Shown in pieces: positions 4,074 through 53,693 of a DNA stretch of 64,000 bases; within the stretch, counting starts at the first letter, position 1, and the number at the start of each line of letters is the position of its first letter. Source of the DNA: Roseovarius sp. SCSIO 43702 (GTDB lineage: Bacteria > Pseudomonadota > Alphaproteobacteria > Rhodobacterales > Rhodobacteraceae). Made by a program: the position numbers and the translations under genes. The stretch is taken from contig NZ_CP080623.1 in NCBI RefSeq assembly GCF_019599045.1, positions 1,076,501 through 1,140,500 on the forward strand, given 5' to 3'. The notes beneath the pieces were generated by a model. The model saw nothing but the letters and a program-made list of their open reading frames with translations. It had not been told where the DNA came from and did no database searches.

Positions 4074-5684
4074 ATGAGTAATTCGGAAAAGGACTACATG
4101 ATGGACCGTCTGGCGGCCGAAGCCCGTATGGGCCGGATCTCGCGACGGTCCTTCATGCATTATTCGATGGCCGCGGGCCTGACCGCGTCGGCCGCGACCG
4201 GGCTGTGGACCAGTTCGGCCAAGGCCGCGCCGCAGAAGGGCGGGACGCTGCGCGTGGCCCAGCATGACGGGAACACCTCGGATCAGCACGATCCCGGTCA
4301 ATACCAGTCGAACTTCGAGATCGGCTATGGCCACACGGTGCGCGCCTATCTCACCATGATCAATCCCGACGGGTCGCTTGGCCCCGACGTGGCGAAGGAA
4401 TGGTCGGCCACGCCGGACGCGGCCGAGTGGACCTTCGTGATCAACGAGAACGCCACGTTCCACGATGGCAACAAGGTGACGGGTGCGGATGTGGTCGCGT
4501 CGCTGAACCATCACCGGGGCGACAACACGACCTCGGCGGCGAAGTCGCTCTTGACGGATGTGGAGGAGATCAAGGACAATGGCGACAACTCGGTCACGAT
4601 CACGCTTTCGGGCGGGAATGCCGATCTGCCGTGGCTCATGACCGACTACCACCTCGCCATCCTGCCGGCGAACGAGGATGGCTCGATCAACTGGCAGTCC
4701 GGCATCGGTTGCGGCCCTTACAAGATGGTCGAGCTCGAATTCGGGGTCGGCGGACGCTTCGTCCGGCACGAGGACTGGCACGGCGAGGGCGCGTGGTTCG
4801 ACGAGGTGCAAGTCCTTGTCATCAACGACCCGAACGCACGCCAGACCGCGCTTGTCACCGGCGACGTCGATACGGCCAGCCTTCTCGACAACAAGACGCT
4901 GGCGCTTCTGTCGCGCAATCCGCAGGTCGAGATCGACAACGTGGCCTCGGCCCAGGCCATCACCATGCCGATGCATTGCGATGTCGCGCCCTTCGACAAC
5001 GTGGACGTGCGCAACGCGCTGAAGCTCGCGATCAACCGCGAGGAACTGATCGAGAAGATCACCTTCGGCGCGGCGACGGTCGGCAACGACTTCCACCACT
5101 CGCCGGCGATGCCCTATTTCCCGGAAGGGATCGAGCAGCGCGAATACGACCCCGAGCAGGCGAAATCCCTGCTCAAGAAGGCGGGCATGGAAGGGCTCAC
5201 GGTCAATTTCTCGACCGCCGACTCGATCACCACCGGCGCCGTGGACGCGGCCGTGCTCTATGCCGAGCACGCCAAGGAAGCGGGCATCACGATCAACGTC
5301 GTGCGCGAGCCCAATGACGGCTACTGGTCGGATGTCTGGCTCGAGAAGCCGTGGTGCATGGTGACGTGGGGCGCACGCCCGACGCCCGACGTGATGTACA
5401 GCCTCGCCTACAAGGAGGGCGCGGACTGGAACGAGTCGCATTGGGTCAATGACGAGTTCAACAAGCTGCTCCAGCAGGGCAAGGCGGAGCTCGACCAGGA
5501 GAAGCGCAAGCAGATCTATCACGACATGGCGCTTCTGGCGCGCAACGACGGGGGCACGGTCATCCCGTATTTCCCGAACTTCATCTACGGCCGTCGGTCG
5601 AACGTGAAGCATACCGGCGCCCTGGCCCCCTCGTGGCAGATGGATGGCTACCGCTATGCGAGCCGCTGGTGGTTCGAAAGCTGA
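4074..5684 (+). CDS. ABC transporter substrate-binding protein, peptide/opine type (SBP family 5), Tat-exported, paralogue 2
   Basis: The product has 536 residues, exactly the length of its upstream neighbour, and is clearly a tandem duplicate by eye. It has the same SRRSF twin-arginine motif at residues 23-27 and an A-K-A cleavage site near residue 51. A good ribosome site (AGGGAG) precedes the ATG. Divergence is scattered along the protein rather than confined to one block, so the two receptors may bind different ligands for the same permease. A hairpin follows (5695-5720). Confidence 0.9.
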   Translation: MSNSEKDYMMDRLAAEARMGRISRRSFMHYSMAAGLTASAATGLWTSSAKAAPQKGGTLRVAQHDGNTSDQHDPGQYQSNFEIGYGHTVRAYLTMINPDGSLGPDVAKEWSATPDAAEWTFVINENATFHDGNKVTGADVVASLNHHRGDNTTSAAKSLLTDVEEIKDNGDNSVTITLSGGNADLPWLMTDYHLAILPANEDGSINWQSGIGCGPYKMVELEFGVGGRFVRHEDWHGEGAWFDEVQVLVINDPNARQTALVTGDVDTASLLDNKTLALLSRNPQVEIDNVASAQAITMPMHCDVAPFDNVDVRNALKLAINREELIEKITFGAATVGNDFHHSPAMPYFPEGIEQREYDPEQAKSLLKKAGMEGLTVNFSTADSITTGAVDAAVLYAEHAKEAGITINVVREPNDGYWSDVWLEKPWCMVTWGARPTPDVMYSLAYKEGADWNESHWVNDEFNKLLQQGKAELDQEKRKQIYHDMALLARNDGGTVIPYFPNFIYGRRSNVKHTGALAPSWQMDGYRYASRWWFES

Positions 5685-50512: not shown

Positions 50513-51313
50513 ATGCCGATTCAGGAGATGGGAGAACGGCGGTTCGGACGTATCAACTGGCTTGGTCTTGCCACGCTGGCCGAGCGCGAGGTGATGCGTT
50601 TTCTCGCGGTGTGGACGCAGACGGTGCTTGCGCCGCTGGCCACCTCGGCCCTGTTCCTCGTGATCTTCACCATCGCCATCGGGCCGCGCCGGGGGGAGGT
50701 GATGGGCGTCGATTTCACGACCTTCATCGCGCCCGGCATCCTGATGATGACGGTCATCCAGAACGCCTTTGCCAACACCTCGTCCTCGATCGTGATCTCG
50801 AAGGTGCAGGGCAATATCGTCGACACGCTCATGCCCCCGCTCAGTGCCGCGGAACTGGTCCTGGGCTATCTCGCCGGCGCGATCGCGCGGGGCGTGATCG
50901 TCGCGGTGGCGATCGCGGCGGGGCTCTGGGCGGTGCTGGGCATCGTGCCCGCGCATCCGGCCTGGCTTCTGACTTTCGTGGTGCTGGGCGCGATTTTCGT
51001 GGGGGGCCTCGGGATCGTCGCGGGGATCTTCGCCAACAAGTTCGACCAGATGGCGGCGATCACCAATTTCATCGTGACCCCGCTGGCGTTCCTCTCGGGC
51101 ACCTTCTACTCGGTCGACGCGCTGCCGCCACTGCTGAACGACATTACCCATGCGAACCCGATCTTCTACGTGATCGACGGGGCGCGGTTCGGGATGATCG
51201 GCGTGTCGGATGCCGATCCGTGGCTCGGCCTTGCCGTGGCGGTGGTGGCGTCGCTGGCGGTGATGGCGCTTGCCTGGCAGATGTTCCGGCGCGGCTACAG
51301 GCTGAAGTCCTGA
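50513..51313 (+). CDS. ABC-2 type transporter permease (NodJ/YadH-like)
   Basis: This 266-residue protein has six membrane helices and the ABC-2 signature around residues 180-205 (FIVTPLAFLSGTFYSVDALP). It would need an ATPase, but none is next to it, so the partner must be encoded elsewhere. GGAGG precedes the start at a good distance. The family exports lipids or polysaccharides; the substrate is unknown. Confidence 0.88.
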   Translation: MPIQEMGERRFGRINWLGLATLAEREVMRFLAVWTQTVLAPLATSALFLVIFTIAIGPRRGEVMGVDFTTFIAPGILMMTVIQNAFANTSSSIVISKVQGNIVDTLMPPLSAAELVLGYLAGAIARGVIVAVAIAAGLWAVLGIVPAHPAWLLTFVVLGAIFVGGLGIVAGIFANKFDQMAAITNFIVTPLAFLSGTFYSVDALPPLLNDITHANPIFYVIDGARFGMIGVSDADPWLGLAVAVVASLAVMALAWQMFRRGYRLKS

Positions 51314-51396
51314 GGATCGCCCGACCACCGGCGAGGCTTCGGGCGGCGTGCATTTTTCGCTTCCCCCAACGTCAGGGGCGAAGTAAACACGGGGCC

Positions 51397-51444
51397 ATGA
51401 CATTGCGACGCCGCCATACCACCGCCCGACGCCTGCGCGCCTGA
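51397..51444 (+). CDS. Candidate arginine-rich leader peptide before argDF, 15 residues
   Basis: A 15-codon frame encodes MTLRRRHTTARRLRA: six arginines, in runs at residues 4-6 and 11-12, plus residue 14. It ends 85 bases before argD and 15 bases before a terminator-like hairpin. This is the layout of amino-acid attenuation leaders. The ribosome site is weak (GGGG only 2 bases from the ATG), so translation is not proven. A stretch inside it (51435-51439) can pair with the left arm of the hairpin (51460-51464), giving an alternative fold. Confidence 0.5.
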   Translation: MTLRRRHTTARRLRA

Positions 51445-51458
51445 CGTCCCGTCGCCCT

Positions 51459-51479
51459 CCGCGCCCGTCCGCGGTTTTT
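51459..51479 (+). terminator. Possible attenuator hairpin before argD
   Basis: CCGCG (51459-51463) pairs with CGCGG (51470-51474) around a 6-base loop, followed by five T (51475-51479). The stem is short but all G-C. It lies between the candidate leader peptide and argD, so it could stop transcription when arginine is plentiful. Confidence 0.5.
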
Positions 51480-51529
51480 CCCCTTCCCAGCTTCGCACGG
51501 CACATGCCTGACAGAAAAGGATTTTCCCG

Positions 51530-52702
51530 ATGATCCCGTCCATTCTGCCCACCTATAACCGCGCGCCGCTCAGCTTCGTCAGGGGCGAGGGATCGTGGCT
51601 TGTCGAGGCGGATGGGCGGCGGTTTCTCGACCTTGGCGCGGGGATCGCGGTCAACGCGCTGGGCCATGCCCATCCGGCCCTCGTGAAGGCGCTCATCACG
51701 CAGGCGCAGGCGCTTTGGCATACGTCGAACCTCTATCATATCCCGGCGCAGGAGGCGCTTGCCGACGCGTTGGTCAAGACCACCTTCGCCGATACCGTCT
51801 TCTTCACGAACTCGGGCACCGAGGCGTGTGAGCTGGCGGTCAAGATGGCGCGCAAATACTGGCACGATACGGGCGACGCGGACCGCACCGAGATCGTGAC
51901 CTTCGAGGGGGCCTTCCACGGCCGTTCGAGCGCGGGGATCGCCGCCGCGGGATCCGAGAAGATGACGAAAGGGTTCGGCCCGCTCCTGCCGGGTTTCCGG
52001 CATCTGCCGTGGGGCGATCACGACGCGCTGCGGAGCGCGGTAACGGACCGGACCGCGGCGATCCTGGTCGAGCCGGTGCAGGGCGAGGGCGGCATCCGGC
52101 CATTGCCCGAGCAATGTCTCAAGGGGCTTCGCGATCTCTGCGACGAGACCGGCGCGCTGCTCATACTGGACGAGGTGCAATGCGGGATGGGCCGCACGGG
52201 CCGGCTTTTCGCGCATGAGTGGGCCGGGGTCGCGCCCGATATCATGATGGTTGCCAAGGGCATCGGCGGCGGCTTCCCGCTGGGTGCGGTGCTGGCCAAC
52301 GAACGCGCGGCCGGGGCCATGGGGCCGGGCACGCATGGCTCGACCTATGGCGGCAACCCGCTGGGCTGCGCGGTGGGGTCGGCGGTCATGGCCGAGATGA
52401 TGGCGCCGGGGTTCATGGAGGAGGTGCGGCGCAAGTCGGACCTTCTGCGCCGGAAGCTCGACGGGCTGGTGGCCTCGCACCCGGAGGTGTTCGCGGAGGT
52501 GCGCGGGCTGGGCCTGATGCTGGGGCTGAAATGCGGGCCGGCGAGTGGCGACGTGGTTGCGGCGGGTTACGATGCGCTTCTCTGCCTCGTTCCGGCGGCA
52601 GACAACGTCGTGCGTCTCCTGCCGCCGCTCACGATCACCGACGAGGAGATCGAGGAGGCCGTCGCGCGCCTCGACAAGGTTGCGACGCGGGTCAAATCCT
52701 AG
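51530..52702 (+). CDS. argD: Acetylornithine aminotransferase
   Basis: This 390-residue class III PLP enzyme makes N-acetylornithine in arginine synthesis. Marks are FLDLGAGIAVNALGH, NSGTEACELAVKMARKYW, the PLP aspartate in LILDEVQCGMGRTG and the lysine in VAKGIGGGFPLGA. AAGGA precedes the ATG. It is followed after 64 bases by argF, so the two are likely one operon. Confidence 0.95.
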   Translation: MIPSILPTYNRAPLSFVRGEGSWLVEADGRRFLDLGAGIAVNALGHAHPALVKALITQAQALWHTSNLYHIPAQEALADALVKTTFADTVFFTNSGTEACELAVKMARKYWHDTGDADRTEIVTFEGAFHGRSSAGIAAAGSEKMTKGFGPLLPGFRHLPWGDHDALRSAVTDRTAAILVEPVQGEGGIRPLPEQCLKGLRDLCDETGALLILDEVQCGMGRTGRLFAHEWAGVAPDIMMVAKGIGGGFPLGAVLANERAAGAMGPGTHGSTYGGNPLGCAVGSAVMAEMMAPGFMEEVRRKSDLLRRKLDGLVASHPEVFAEVRGLGLMLGLKCGPASGDVVAAGYDALLCLVPAADNVVRLLPPLTITDEEIEEAVARLDKVATRVKS

Positions 52703-52766: not shown

Positions 52767-53693
52767 ATGGCACATTTTCTCGACATTCACAAAACCGCCC
52801 CGGAAGACCTCCGGTCGATCATCGACAGCGCGCAGGAGATGAAATCGGCGCGGGGCGGGGCCACGCGCGGCACGCCGGATGCGGAGCAGCCGCTTGCCAA
52901 CCACATGGTCGCGCTCATCTTCGAGAAGCCCTCGACCCGCACGCGGGTGAGCTTCGACGTGGGCGTGCGCCAGATGGGCGGGCAGACCATGACGCTTTCG
53001 GGCGCCGAGCTGCAACTGGGGCATGGCGAGACCATCGCCGACACCGCGCGCGTCCTGAGCCGTTATGTCGATCTGATCATGATCCGCACCTTCGACGAGT
53101 CGGTTCTGCTTGAGTTGGCCGAGTATGCCGACGTGCCCGTTATCAACGGTTTGACCGACCGTACGCACCCCTGCCAGATCATGGCGGACGTCATGACCTT
53201 CGAAGAACATCGCGGGCCGATCAAGGGTCGGAAGGTGGTGTGGTCGGGTGACGGCAACAATGTCTGCGCGTCGTTCATCCACGCGGCCGGGCAGTTCGGT
53301 TTCGACTTCACCTTCACCGGGCCGCAGCAATTCGACCCCGAGGAGGAATTCGTGGGGATCGCGCGCCGCGCCGGATCGAAAGTGGTGATCGAGCGCGATG
53401 CCGCCACCGCCGTGAAGGACGCCGACCTCGTGGTGACGGACACCTGGGTCAGCATGCATGACAGCCAGTCCACCAAGGAGCGGCGGCACAACACGCTGCG
53501 TCCCTACCAGGTGAACGAGGCGCTGATGGCACAGGCCAAGCCCGACGCGCTTTTCATGCATTGCCTGCCCGCGCATCGCGAGGACGAGGTGACGAGCGCC
53601 GTGATGGATGGCCCGAACTCGGTCATCTGGGACGAGGCGGAGAACAGGCTGCACGCACAGAAAGCGATCATGCGGTGGTGCCTCGGCGTGTGA
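52767..53693 (+). CDS. argF: Ornithine carbamoyltransferase
   Basis: This 308-residue enzyme joins ornithine and carbamoyl phosphate to citrulline. The carbamoyl-phosphate motif is [13 protein letters not shown], with HPCQIMAD and the ornithine site MHCLPAHR. The supply of carbamoyl phosphate comes from carB at 30119. It converges on the cupin gene with a 10-base gap. Confidence 0.95.

Follow-up and report, generated by a model that had tools for sequence, protein, structure and literature searches.

A short arginine-rich frame and a terminator-like hairpin precede argDF

The window, meaning the whole 64,000-nucleotide stretch of Roseovarius sp. SCSIO 43702 that was analyzed (contig NZ_CP080623.1, positions 1,076,501 to 1,140,500), carries argD and argF on the forward strand behind a short open reading frame (ORF) and a hairpin. 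The features are as follows:

51397..51444, + strand: leader ORF, predicted to be leaderless, 15 codons plus TGA, MTLRRRHTTARRLRA
51459..51479, + strand: intrinsic-terminator-like hairpin of 5 G-C pairs, plus five T
51515..51521, + strand: argD Shine-Dalgarno (SD) sequence AAAAGGA, as read from the sequence
51530..52702, + strand: argD, acetylornithine transaminase (NF002325 and TIGR00707, both above cut-off, NCBIfam)
52767..53693, + strand: argF, ornithine carbamoyltransferase (TIGR00658, above cut-off, NCBIfam)

The leader reads from an ATG at 51397 to a TGA at 51442-51444, and every one of its six arginine codons (codons 4, 5, 6, 11, 12, and 14) is CGA or CGC. The stop codon and the hairpin CCGCGCCCGTCCGCGG (51459-51474) are 14 nt apart, and TTTTT follows directly (51475-51479), with argD beginning at 51530. 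An earlier sequence-only reading had proposed a ribosome-mediated arginine attenuator from these elements, and the 15-codon frame with six arginines, the G-C hairpin with five T, and argD all lie where it had placed them, as does the complementarity between GCGCG (51435-51439) and CGCGC (51460-51464). Among relatives, the sequence 3’ of argD contained an STRTR motif in all 96 loci long enough for checking (96/96), which is a carbamoyltransferase motif that we take as the sign of an argF-like gene. A 277-codon open frame (50611-51444), of which the leader frame forms the 3’ end, overlaps an ABC permease gene in another phase and was judged to be spurious as a gene.

The terminator-like sites of the window are not beyond chance when taken alone, with 2 found in 50900-52000 versus 1.1 ± 0.9 in shuffles, and the RNA from 51386 to 51529 folds no better than shuffled sequences (z 0.46). 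A search of 51200-51700 against Rfam release 15 gave no match up to an E value of 5, while eight relatives yielded nothing relevant, only two mir-5592 matches at 4958-5026 of a single locus (L007), both outside the leader and far below the gathering score. The leader structure rises above chance because the Arg-rich frame is conserved within Rhodobacteraceae.

Conservation of the leader in Rhodobacteraceae

Our first set consisted of 97 argD loci, 79 or 80 of them from named relatives and the others from the same genus; the named relatives in the 80-member argD set include Roseovarius, Ruegeria, Sulfitobacter, and Phaeobacter. L096 was excluded from the scan of this set because its argD start was not in place. 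A leader-like frame was found in 90 of the 97 loci and none in the other 7. The set was subsequently reduced to 86 by dropping a divergent locus (L012), a spurious one (L093), and two (L087 and L095) having the same upstream DNA as L013 (Roseovarius marisflavi) and L050. To avoid bias towards close kin, a second sample contained one genome for each of 140 Rhodobacteraceae genera, of which 139 had an argD by cut-off, and the upstream DNA of all 139 loci was read, including two (G062 and G149) with little upstream contig. The best short ATG frame before argD contained four consecutive arginine codons in 75/139 genera, compared to 0.4 in dinucleotide shuffles, and at least three arginines in four codons in 98/139 genera, compared to 8.4. 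The sequence-only reading had taken a loss of the arginine codons in relatives as an outcome that would count against it, whereas the short Arg-rich frame is conserved in these 75 of 139 genera. With distance limits and the string CGACG required, and short frames with CGACGA added, we accepted leaders at 106 of the 139 genus-level loci. Among the 13 loci scoring lowest for argD (L235-L247), 1 has a leader, versus 105 of the 126 others. From these comparisons, a putative leader with arginine codons is common to most of the sampled Rhodobacteraceae genera. The window leader departs from the family consensus.

Signs of translation and a predicted leaderless start

As a test of reading phase, we used as an anchor the ATG that follows a TA at promoter distance, with no open frame required. 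CGACG was within reach of this ATG in 107/139 loci and was in phase in 105 of the 107, at distances ranging from 9 to 57 nt. Codon choice in the leader is likewise distinctive. Among the 392 leader arginine codons of the 86 first-set loci, there are 179 CGA, 192 CGC, 13 CGT, 4 CGG, and 4 AGA, whereas the 1372 arginine codons of argD at the same loci include 100 CGA and 275 CGG, such that CGA accounts for 46% in the leader versus 7% in argD, and CGG for 1% versus 20%. The 106 genus-level leaders are similar (n=488: CGA 201, CGC 236, CGT 29, CGG 14, AGA 4, AGG 4), and the 74 genus-level four-Arg blocks use 11 different codon strings. CGA, CGC, and CGU are decoded by a single tRNA-Arg (ICG), and the codon choice of the leader would fit a sensor of one charged tRNA.

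The sequence 5’ of the leader contains the elements of a candidate promoter, P1:

51384..51389, + strand: P1 -10, TAAACA, its TA starting 13 nt before the leader ATG
51361..51366, + strand: P1 -35 position, TTCCCC, weak (3/6 to TTGACA), 17 nt before the -10

A TA starts 11-14 nt 5’ of the leader ATG in 91/106 loci (2-14 loci at other offsets) and a C is present at -1 in 82/106, both counts being somewhat inflated by choosing the start by promoter signature where several in-frame ATGs exist. Among the 91 relatives with this spacing, a hexamer matching TTGACA in at least 4/6 positions is present 16-19 nt before the -10 in 56 (9.6 expected), 43 of these 56 at 17 nt, and matches of at least 5/6 are present in 30/91 (1.0 expected), mostly at 17 nt. 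A promoter scan of the window itself gave no consensus sigma-70 site, and P1 is therefore recognized only by comparison with relatives. An SD-like 4-mer precedes the leader in 6/106 leader loci and argD in 101/106. Together with phase and codon bias, this promoter geometry suggests that the leader is translated and that its initiation looks leaderless, with transcription predicted to start at or beside the A of the leader ATG. The weak ribosome site, which the sequence-only reading had listed as a weak point, is accounted for by the predicted leaderless initiation, given the -10 spacing in 91/106 loci and the SD-like 4-mer in only 6/106. It had also regarded a transcription start downstream of 51444 as incompatible with its proposal; our placement of the start at the leader ATG, itself a prediction, runs the other way. 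Two further observations concern P1. Its -10 hexamers end in T in just 2/91 leader loci, and the -10 elements of CarD-dependent promoters in Rhodobacter sphaeroides likewise rarely end in T. In addition, an imperfect inverted repeat, CTTCCCC...GGGGCGAAG, spans P1 of the window (51360-51383).

Alternative folds in the window copy

The sequence-only reading had further proposed that the hairpin after the stop codon (H3) and an antiterminator exclude each other and that the ribosome decides between them. The two antiterminator strands, defined in silico, are as follows:

51435..51439, + strand: antiterminator 5’ strand GCGCG, within the leader
51460..51464, + strand: antiterminator 3’ strand CGCGC, part of the terminator left arm

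We folded the RNA up to the hairpin end with a ribosome positioned by its A-site codon. The probability of H3 was 0.00-0.01 with arginine codon 4, 5, or 6 in the A site and 0.92 at the stop codon, and the minimum-energy folds of the stalled states hold the GCGCG/CGCGC pairing. In naked RNA the probability was 0.0002, i.e. the antiterminator is preferred, so an untranslated leader would read through. When the A site holds codon 11, 12, or 14, the hairpin does form, and a stall at the second arginine cluster would thus permit the terminator. Synonymous GC3 recoding of the leader kept a switch in 50 of 300 cases, as opposed to 269 of 300 for a shuffled spacer; the modeled switch is dependent upon the leader sequence, yet only moderately unusual. 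From this modeling, we lean towards the hairpin and T run at 51459-51479 terminating transcription under the proposed antiterminator control in the window copy.

RNA structure and terminator-like sites in relatives

The strongest pairing among relatives is a different one, and its window counterpart lies at the following positions:

51405..51410, + strand: A strand GCGACG, pairing with 51450-51455, counterpart of a conserved start-region stem
51450..51455, + strand: A’ strand CGTCGC, partner of the A strand

We surveyed 176 loci with TTGAC for stems, using 274 pairs of 12-nt windows and 12 permutations per pair, for which the z values are rough. A:A’, the start region with stop+6, ranked first (z -10.5), followed by H3 (z -7.5), H2, which is the Arg block with the stop region (z -7.2), and H4, a stem around the proximal promoter (z -6.9), while the opposite tail reached +3.3. 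Measured against that tail, the signal between the leader end and the 3’ arm of H4 (z -4.3) lies close to noise, and this pairing was rejected. Over 186 of the 187 distinct loci, H2 had a z of -7.0 and the A:A’ value was reached by 0/1000 permutations. It was also reached by 0/2000 permutations over 85 loci, where two control windows were null; L097 was left out of this test, and H4 was counted on 83 loci. The own A:A’ pairing of the window stands at the 90th percentile in the 85-locus test, while 26 of the 85 loci are at or below the 70th, so not every locus shows the stem. At genus level, A:A’ pairing as a Watson-Crick helix of 6 bp or more, located within 45 nt 3’ of the stop, is present in 41/106 loci, versus 12.5 when permuted (highest 21). 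All of these permutation values are optimistic because the permutations ignore relatedness.

For covariation, we counted on 20 hand-picked loci of one architecture, having set aside a 48-locus MAFFT alignment in which the A’ strand and the hairpin were out of place. Across three helices, 88.0% of cells pair, versus 23.5-49.2% when slid, and the covariation score was reached by 0/500 shuffles, although the count of additional pair types is unremarkable (90/500) and 13 of the 20 loci do not form one of the H2 pairs (columns 39-50). Compensatory changes in relatives had been suggested as a test of the attenuator proposal. Such changes do exist, but mainly in the other stem, A:A’ (5/9 pairs), whereas the covariation signal between the leader end and the left arm of the hairpin is marginal (31/1000 permutations).

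The ribosome-dependent exclusion that holds in silico for the window does not extend to the family. Mean H3 probability over the 186 loci was 0.70 when free, 0.74 when stalled, and 0.70 at the stop; the expected family-wide H3 switch was not found, the hairpin being as likely when stalled as at the stop, and a change of >0.3 in the expected direction occurs in only 15/186 loci, the window included. A family-wide H4 switch is similarly unconvincing, with a mean gain of 0.37 expected pairs for stop over stall in 176 loci and changes of more than one pair going up in 32 and down in 22. Terminator-like sites having 5 or more T in 8 exist at 18/106 leader loci (6.0 ± 1.7 in shuffles), and those having 4 or more T at 44/106 (18.9 ± 4.7), 21 of these 44 ending 80-99 nt before argD. 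A terminator 3’ of the leader is thus enriched, yet 88 of 106 leader loci are without a site of 5 or more T in 8, and the intrinsic-terminator switch is not supported as a general mechanism. Overall, the sequence-only reading is partly supported: the comparisons favor an arginine leader before argDF and the modeling favors exclusive folds in the window copy, but not a general switch.

A second promoter in most relatives

In relatives, a proximal argD promoter (P2) appears to follow the leader, and the corresponding place in the window is as follows:

51478..51506, + strand: place of the relatives’ P2 (TTGAC, with a CACTCA-like hexamer 17-18 nt on)

TTGAC is present 48-92 nt 5’ of argD in 96/106 leader loci and in 22/33 loci without an accepted leader, and CACTCA-like hexamers 17-18 nt after it are visible by eye in many loci. 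Judging by its position, we infer that P2 is the promoter of argD. The window is among the 10/106 leader loci without TTGAC, its -35 at this place reading TTCCCC. P2 has probably been lost here, and argDF of the window would therefore probably depend upon P1 and the leader. H4 spans the -10 of the conserved TTGAC promoter in the relatives of window 51478-51520 (e.g. L001, L010, and L076), and T is enriched after it (0.42 at +35..+42 versus 0.22 at +5..+20); H4 and this stretch could be either a terminator overlapping the promoter or a DNA dyad.

Arginine regulation elsewhere in the genome and outside the family

A search for the C-terminal domain of ArgR (PF02863, Arg_repressor_C) found it in 0/140 Rhodobacteraceae genomes, while the same search was positive in 8/14 control genomes. 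Upstream of argG, argJ, argC, and argH within the genus, there was no frame with four consecutive arginine codons in the rows obtained, which were 12 of 13 loci for each gene, with three fragments of genome G002 unread. Three arginines in four codons occur in three of these rows, L278 (read on the wrong strand), L299, and L323, and are not common between genomes.

Outside of Rhodobacteraceae, 37 alphaproteobacterial argD loci were read, 11 in one batch and 26 of the 27 in another (argD is present in 83/114 genomes searched, and the fetched loci were those read). Three arginines in four codons occur in 3/37 loci, against an expectation of 2.4 when these loci are shuffled, and four consecutive arginine codons in 2/37 (L106 and L256), compared to 0.25 expected. 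The latter two frames lie 190 and 52 nt before argD, in other alphaproteobacterial families. L256 and L261 make free use of CGG or CGT codons, and a TA 11-14 nt before the ATG is found in 0/3 of the outside Arg-rich frames; due to this codon use and missing spacing, the three were not counted as the argD leader. L106 and L256 are perhaps independent leaders, and isolated cases beyond Rhodobacteraceae are possible, L106 above all.

Proposed mechanism and alternatives

An arginine-sensing leader peptide before argDF is, in our assessment of the sequence evidence, highly probable. From the Arg-biased frame with its marks of translation and the promoter geometry, both comparative, and from the two exclusive window folds obtained in silico, we propose that a leaderless, arginine-responsive leader peptide attenuates argDF, to which we assign a probability of roughly 0.7. 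Stalling, termination, and the response to arginine are the inferred parts of this scheme. Transcription would start at the leader AUG, as the promoter spacing implies, and a ribosome would load directly onto the 5’ end of the RNA. If charged tRNA-Arg for CGA/CGC were scarce, the ribosome would stall in the arginine run; otherwise, it would reach the stop codon. In the window, a stall at codons 4-6 would leave 51435-51439 free to capture 51460-51464, the terminator would be blocked, and RNA polymerase would proceed into argDF. A ribosome at the stop would cover the antiterminator strand, such that the hairpin and T run would end transcription. In relatives, the transcription stop may be weakly intrinsic, Rho-assisted, or otherwise. 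Besides the limits of the modeled switch described above, the weak P1 -35 of the window and the second promoter that follows the leader in most relatives stand against attenuation.

The alternative that survives best, though we consider it unlikely, retains the same arginine-sensing leader and changes its output to Rho-dependent termination or RNA decay, with the position of the ribosome hiding or exposing a loading stretch, rich in C and poor in G, 3’ of the hairpin. Such a stretch does exist, as the 8 nt after H3 average 3.6 C, 0.9 G, and 2.2 T over 186 loci, and a role for Rho in relatives is thus possible. Terminator-like sites of 5 or more T in 8 are present at only 18/106 leader loci, and Rho-type control by a short upstream ORF has been published for speF (PMC6386406) and proposed for a Sinorhizobium DUF1127 gene (PMC12218461). 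However, the stretch from hairpin to P2 is short, C-rich DNA just 5’ of a promoter needs no Rho, and the window itself has a T run.

It is less likely still that the leader is a separate small transcript, with P2 alone producing the argDF mRNA and the leader RNA or peptide acting elsewhere like rnTrpL. This would agree with the P2-like TTGAC located between leader and argD in 96/106 leader loci and before argD in 22/33 loci without an accepted leader, and the rnTrpL of Sinorhizobium is a leaderless precedent (PMC10117765). Yet the leader stays beside argDF, none was seen before argG, argJ, argC, or argH in the genus, and the window lacks P2. Slightly less probable again is that the window copy is a decayed member of the family whose hairpin and T run are coincidental. 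While its leader is unlike the consensus, P2 is missing, the P1 -35 is weak, and a switch above 0.3 exists in just 15/186 loci, the window among them, it has kept the P1 -10 spacing, six CGA/CGC codons, and the A:A’ counterpart, and a second arginine cluster is not expected from decay. A non-coding DNA or RNA element that is frame-like only through high G+C is very improbable, because even though pairing between the Arg block and the stop region (z -7.0) also places the bases of the block under RNA constraint, and the window frame is the tail of the longer open frame 50611-51444, the phase test (105/107), the 11 codon strings among 74 four-Arg blocks, and a codon bias unlike that of argD all speak for coding.

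Beyond the leaderless arginine attenuator itself, we tentatively suggest a joint reading that we consider to have less than even odds: most Rhodobacteraceae, which are without ArgR, would control arginine synthesis at argDF by a family-specific leaderless attenuator, in which the covarying stem closes the 5’-terminal AUG as soon as the transcript has grown to sufficient length, leaving a single pioneer ribosome per RNA to read the arginine level, and which sits just 5’ of a second promoter overlapping another covarying stem. Within this same tentative reading, a leader plus a second promoter overlapping a covarying stem would not fit a classic terminator/antiterminator switch. If true, the leader would explain how arginine synthesis is adjusted in a large family without a detected ArgR (0/140 genomes) and would extend ribosome-mediated attenuation to an arginine-biosynthesis operon. 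It would also constitute a compact leaderless attenuator with an output step that seemingly differs between relatives, making attenuator evolution testable.

Comparison with known systems

Ribosome-mediated attenuators of the trp, his, and leu type carry codons for the end product in a short leader ORF. The argD leader resembles them in having end-product codons in a short ORF and the operon of the same amino acid downstream, and the window copy additionally in its mutually exclusive terminator and antiterminator, as modeled in silico. It differs in sensing arginine, in its leaderless start, in the classic switch not being conserved in relatives, and in the second promoter that follows in most of them. 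Leaderless polycysteine short ORFs of mycobacteria are reportedly an attenuator as well, judging by the title of Canestrari 2020. Compared by that title and by a mention in PMC9094748, they share with the argD leader the leaderless start and a codon run of the sensed amino acid, but they concern cysteine and mycobacteria.

In searches of an open-licence library, which does not contain most subscription papers, we found no arginine-biosynthesis attenuator of the argD-leader kind. A leaderless alphaproteobacterial case is trpL/rnTrpL of Sinorhizobium meliloti, a leaderless small ORF at the AUG of the transcript before a biosynthetic gene, with an attenuator RNA that also acts away from its own operon (PMC10117765); it senses Trp and has a different gene and peptide. 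In Salmonella, ribosome pausing at consecutive arginine codons of speF orf34 alters the fate of the RNA in an arginine-responsive manner (PMC6386406). Here orf34 controls ornithine decarboxylase rather than an arginine-biosynthesis operon and acts by means of Rho, RNase G, and ribosome-site folding (PMC6386406), whereas at argD leader loci only the C-rich, G-poor tail 3’ of the hairpin would point to Rho. A further case is the uORFC-8-2 motif before cysS in Rhodobacterales, for which ribosome-mediated attenuation has been proposed; the main text of that study (PMC8632094) contains no argD. According to this main text, the motif shares with the argD leader the same order, AUG conservation, and tandem codons for the amino acid being sensed, and differs in sensing cysteine, in preceding cysS, and in a consensus that ends in a U run (PMC8632094).
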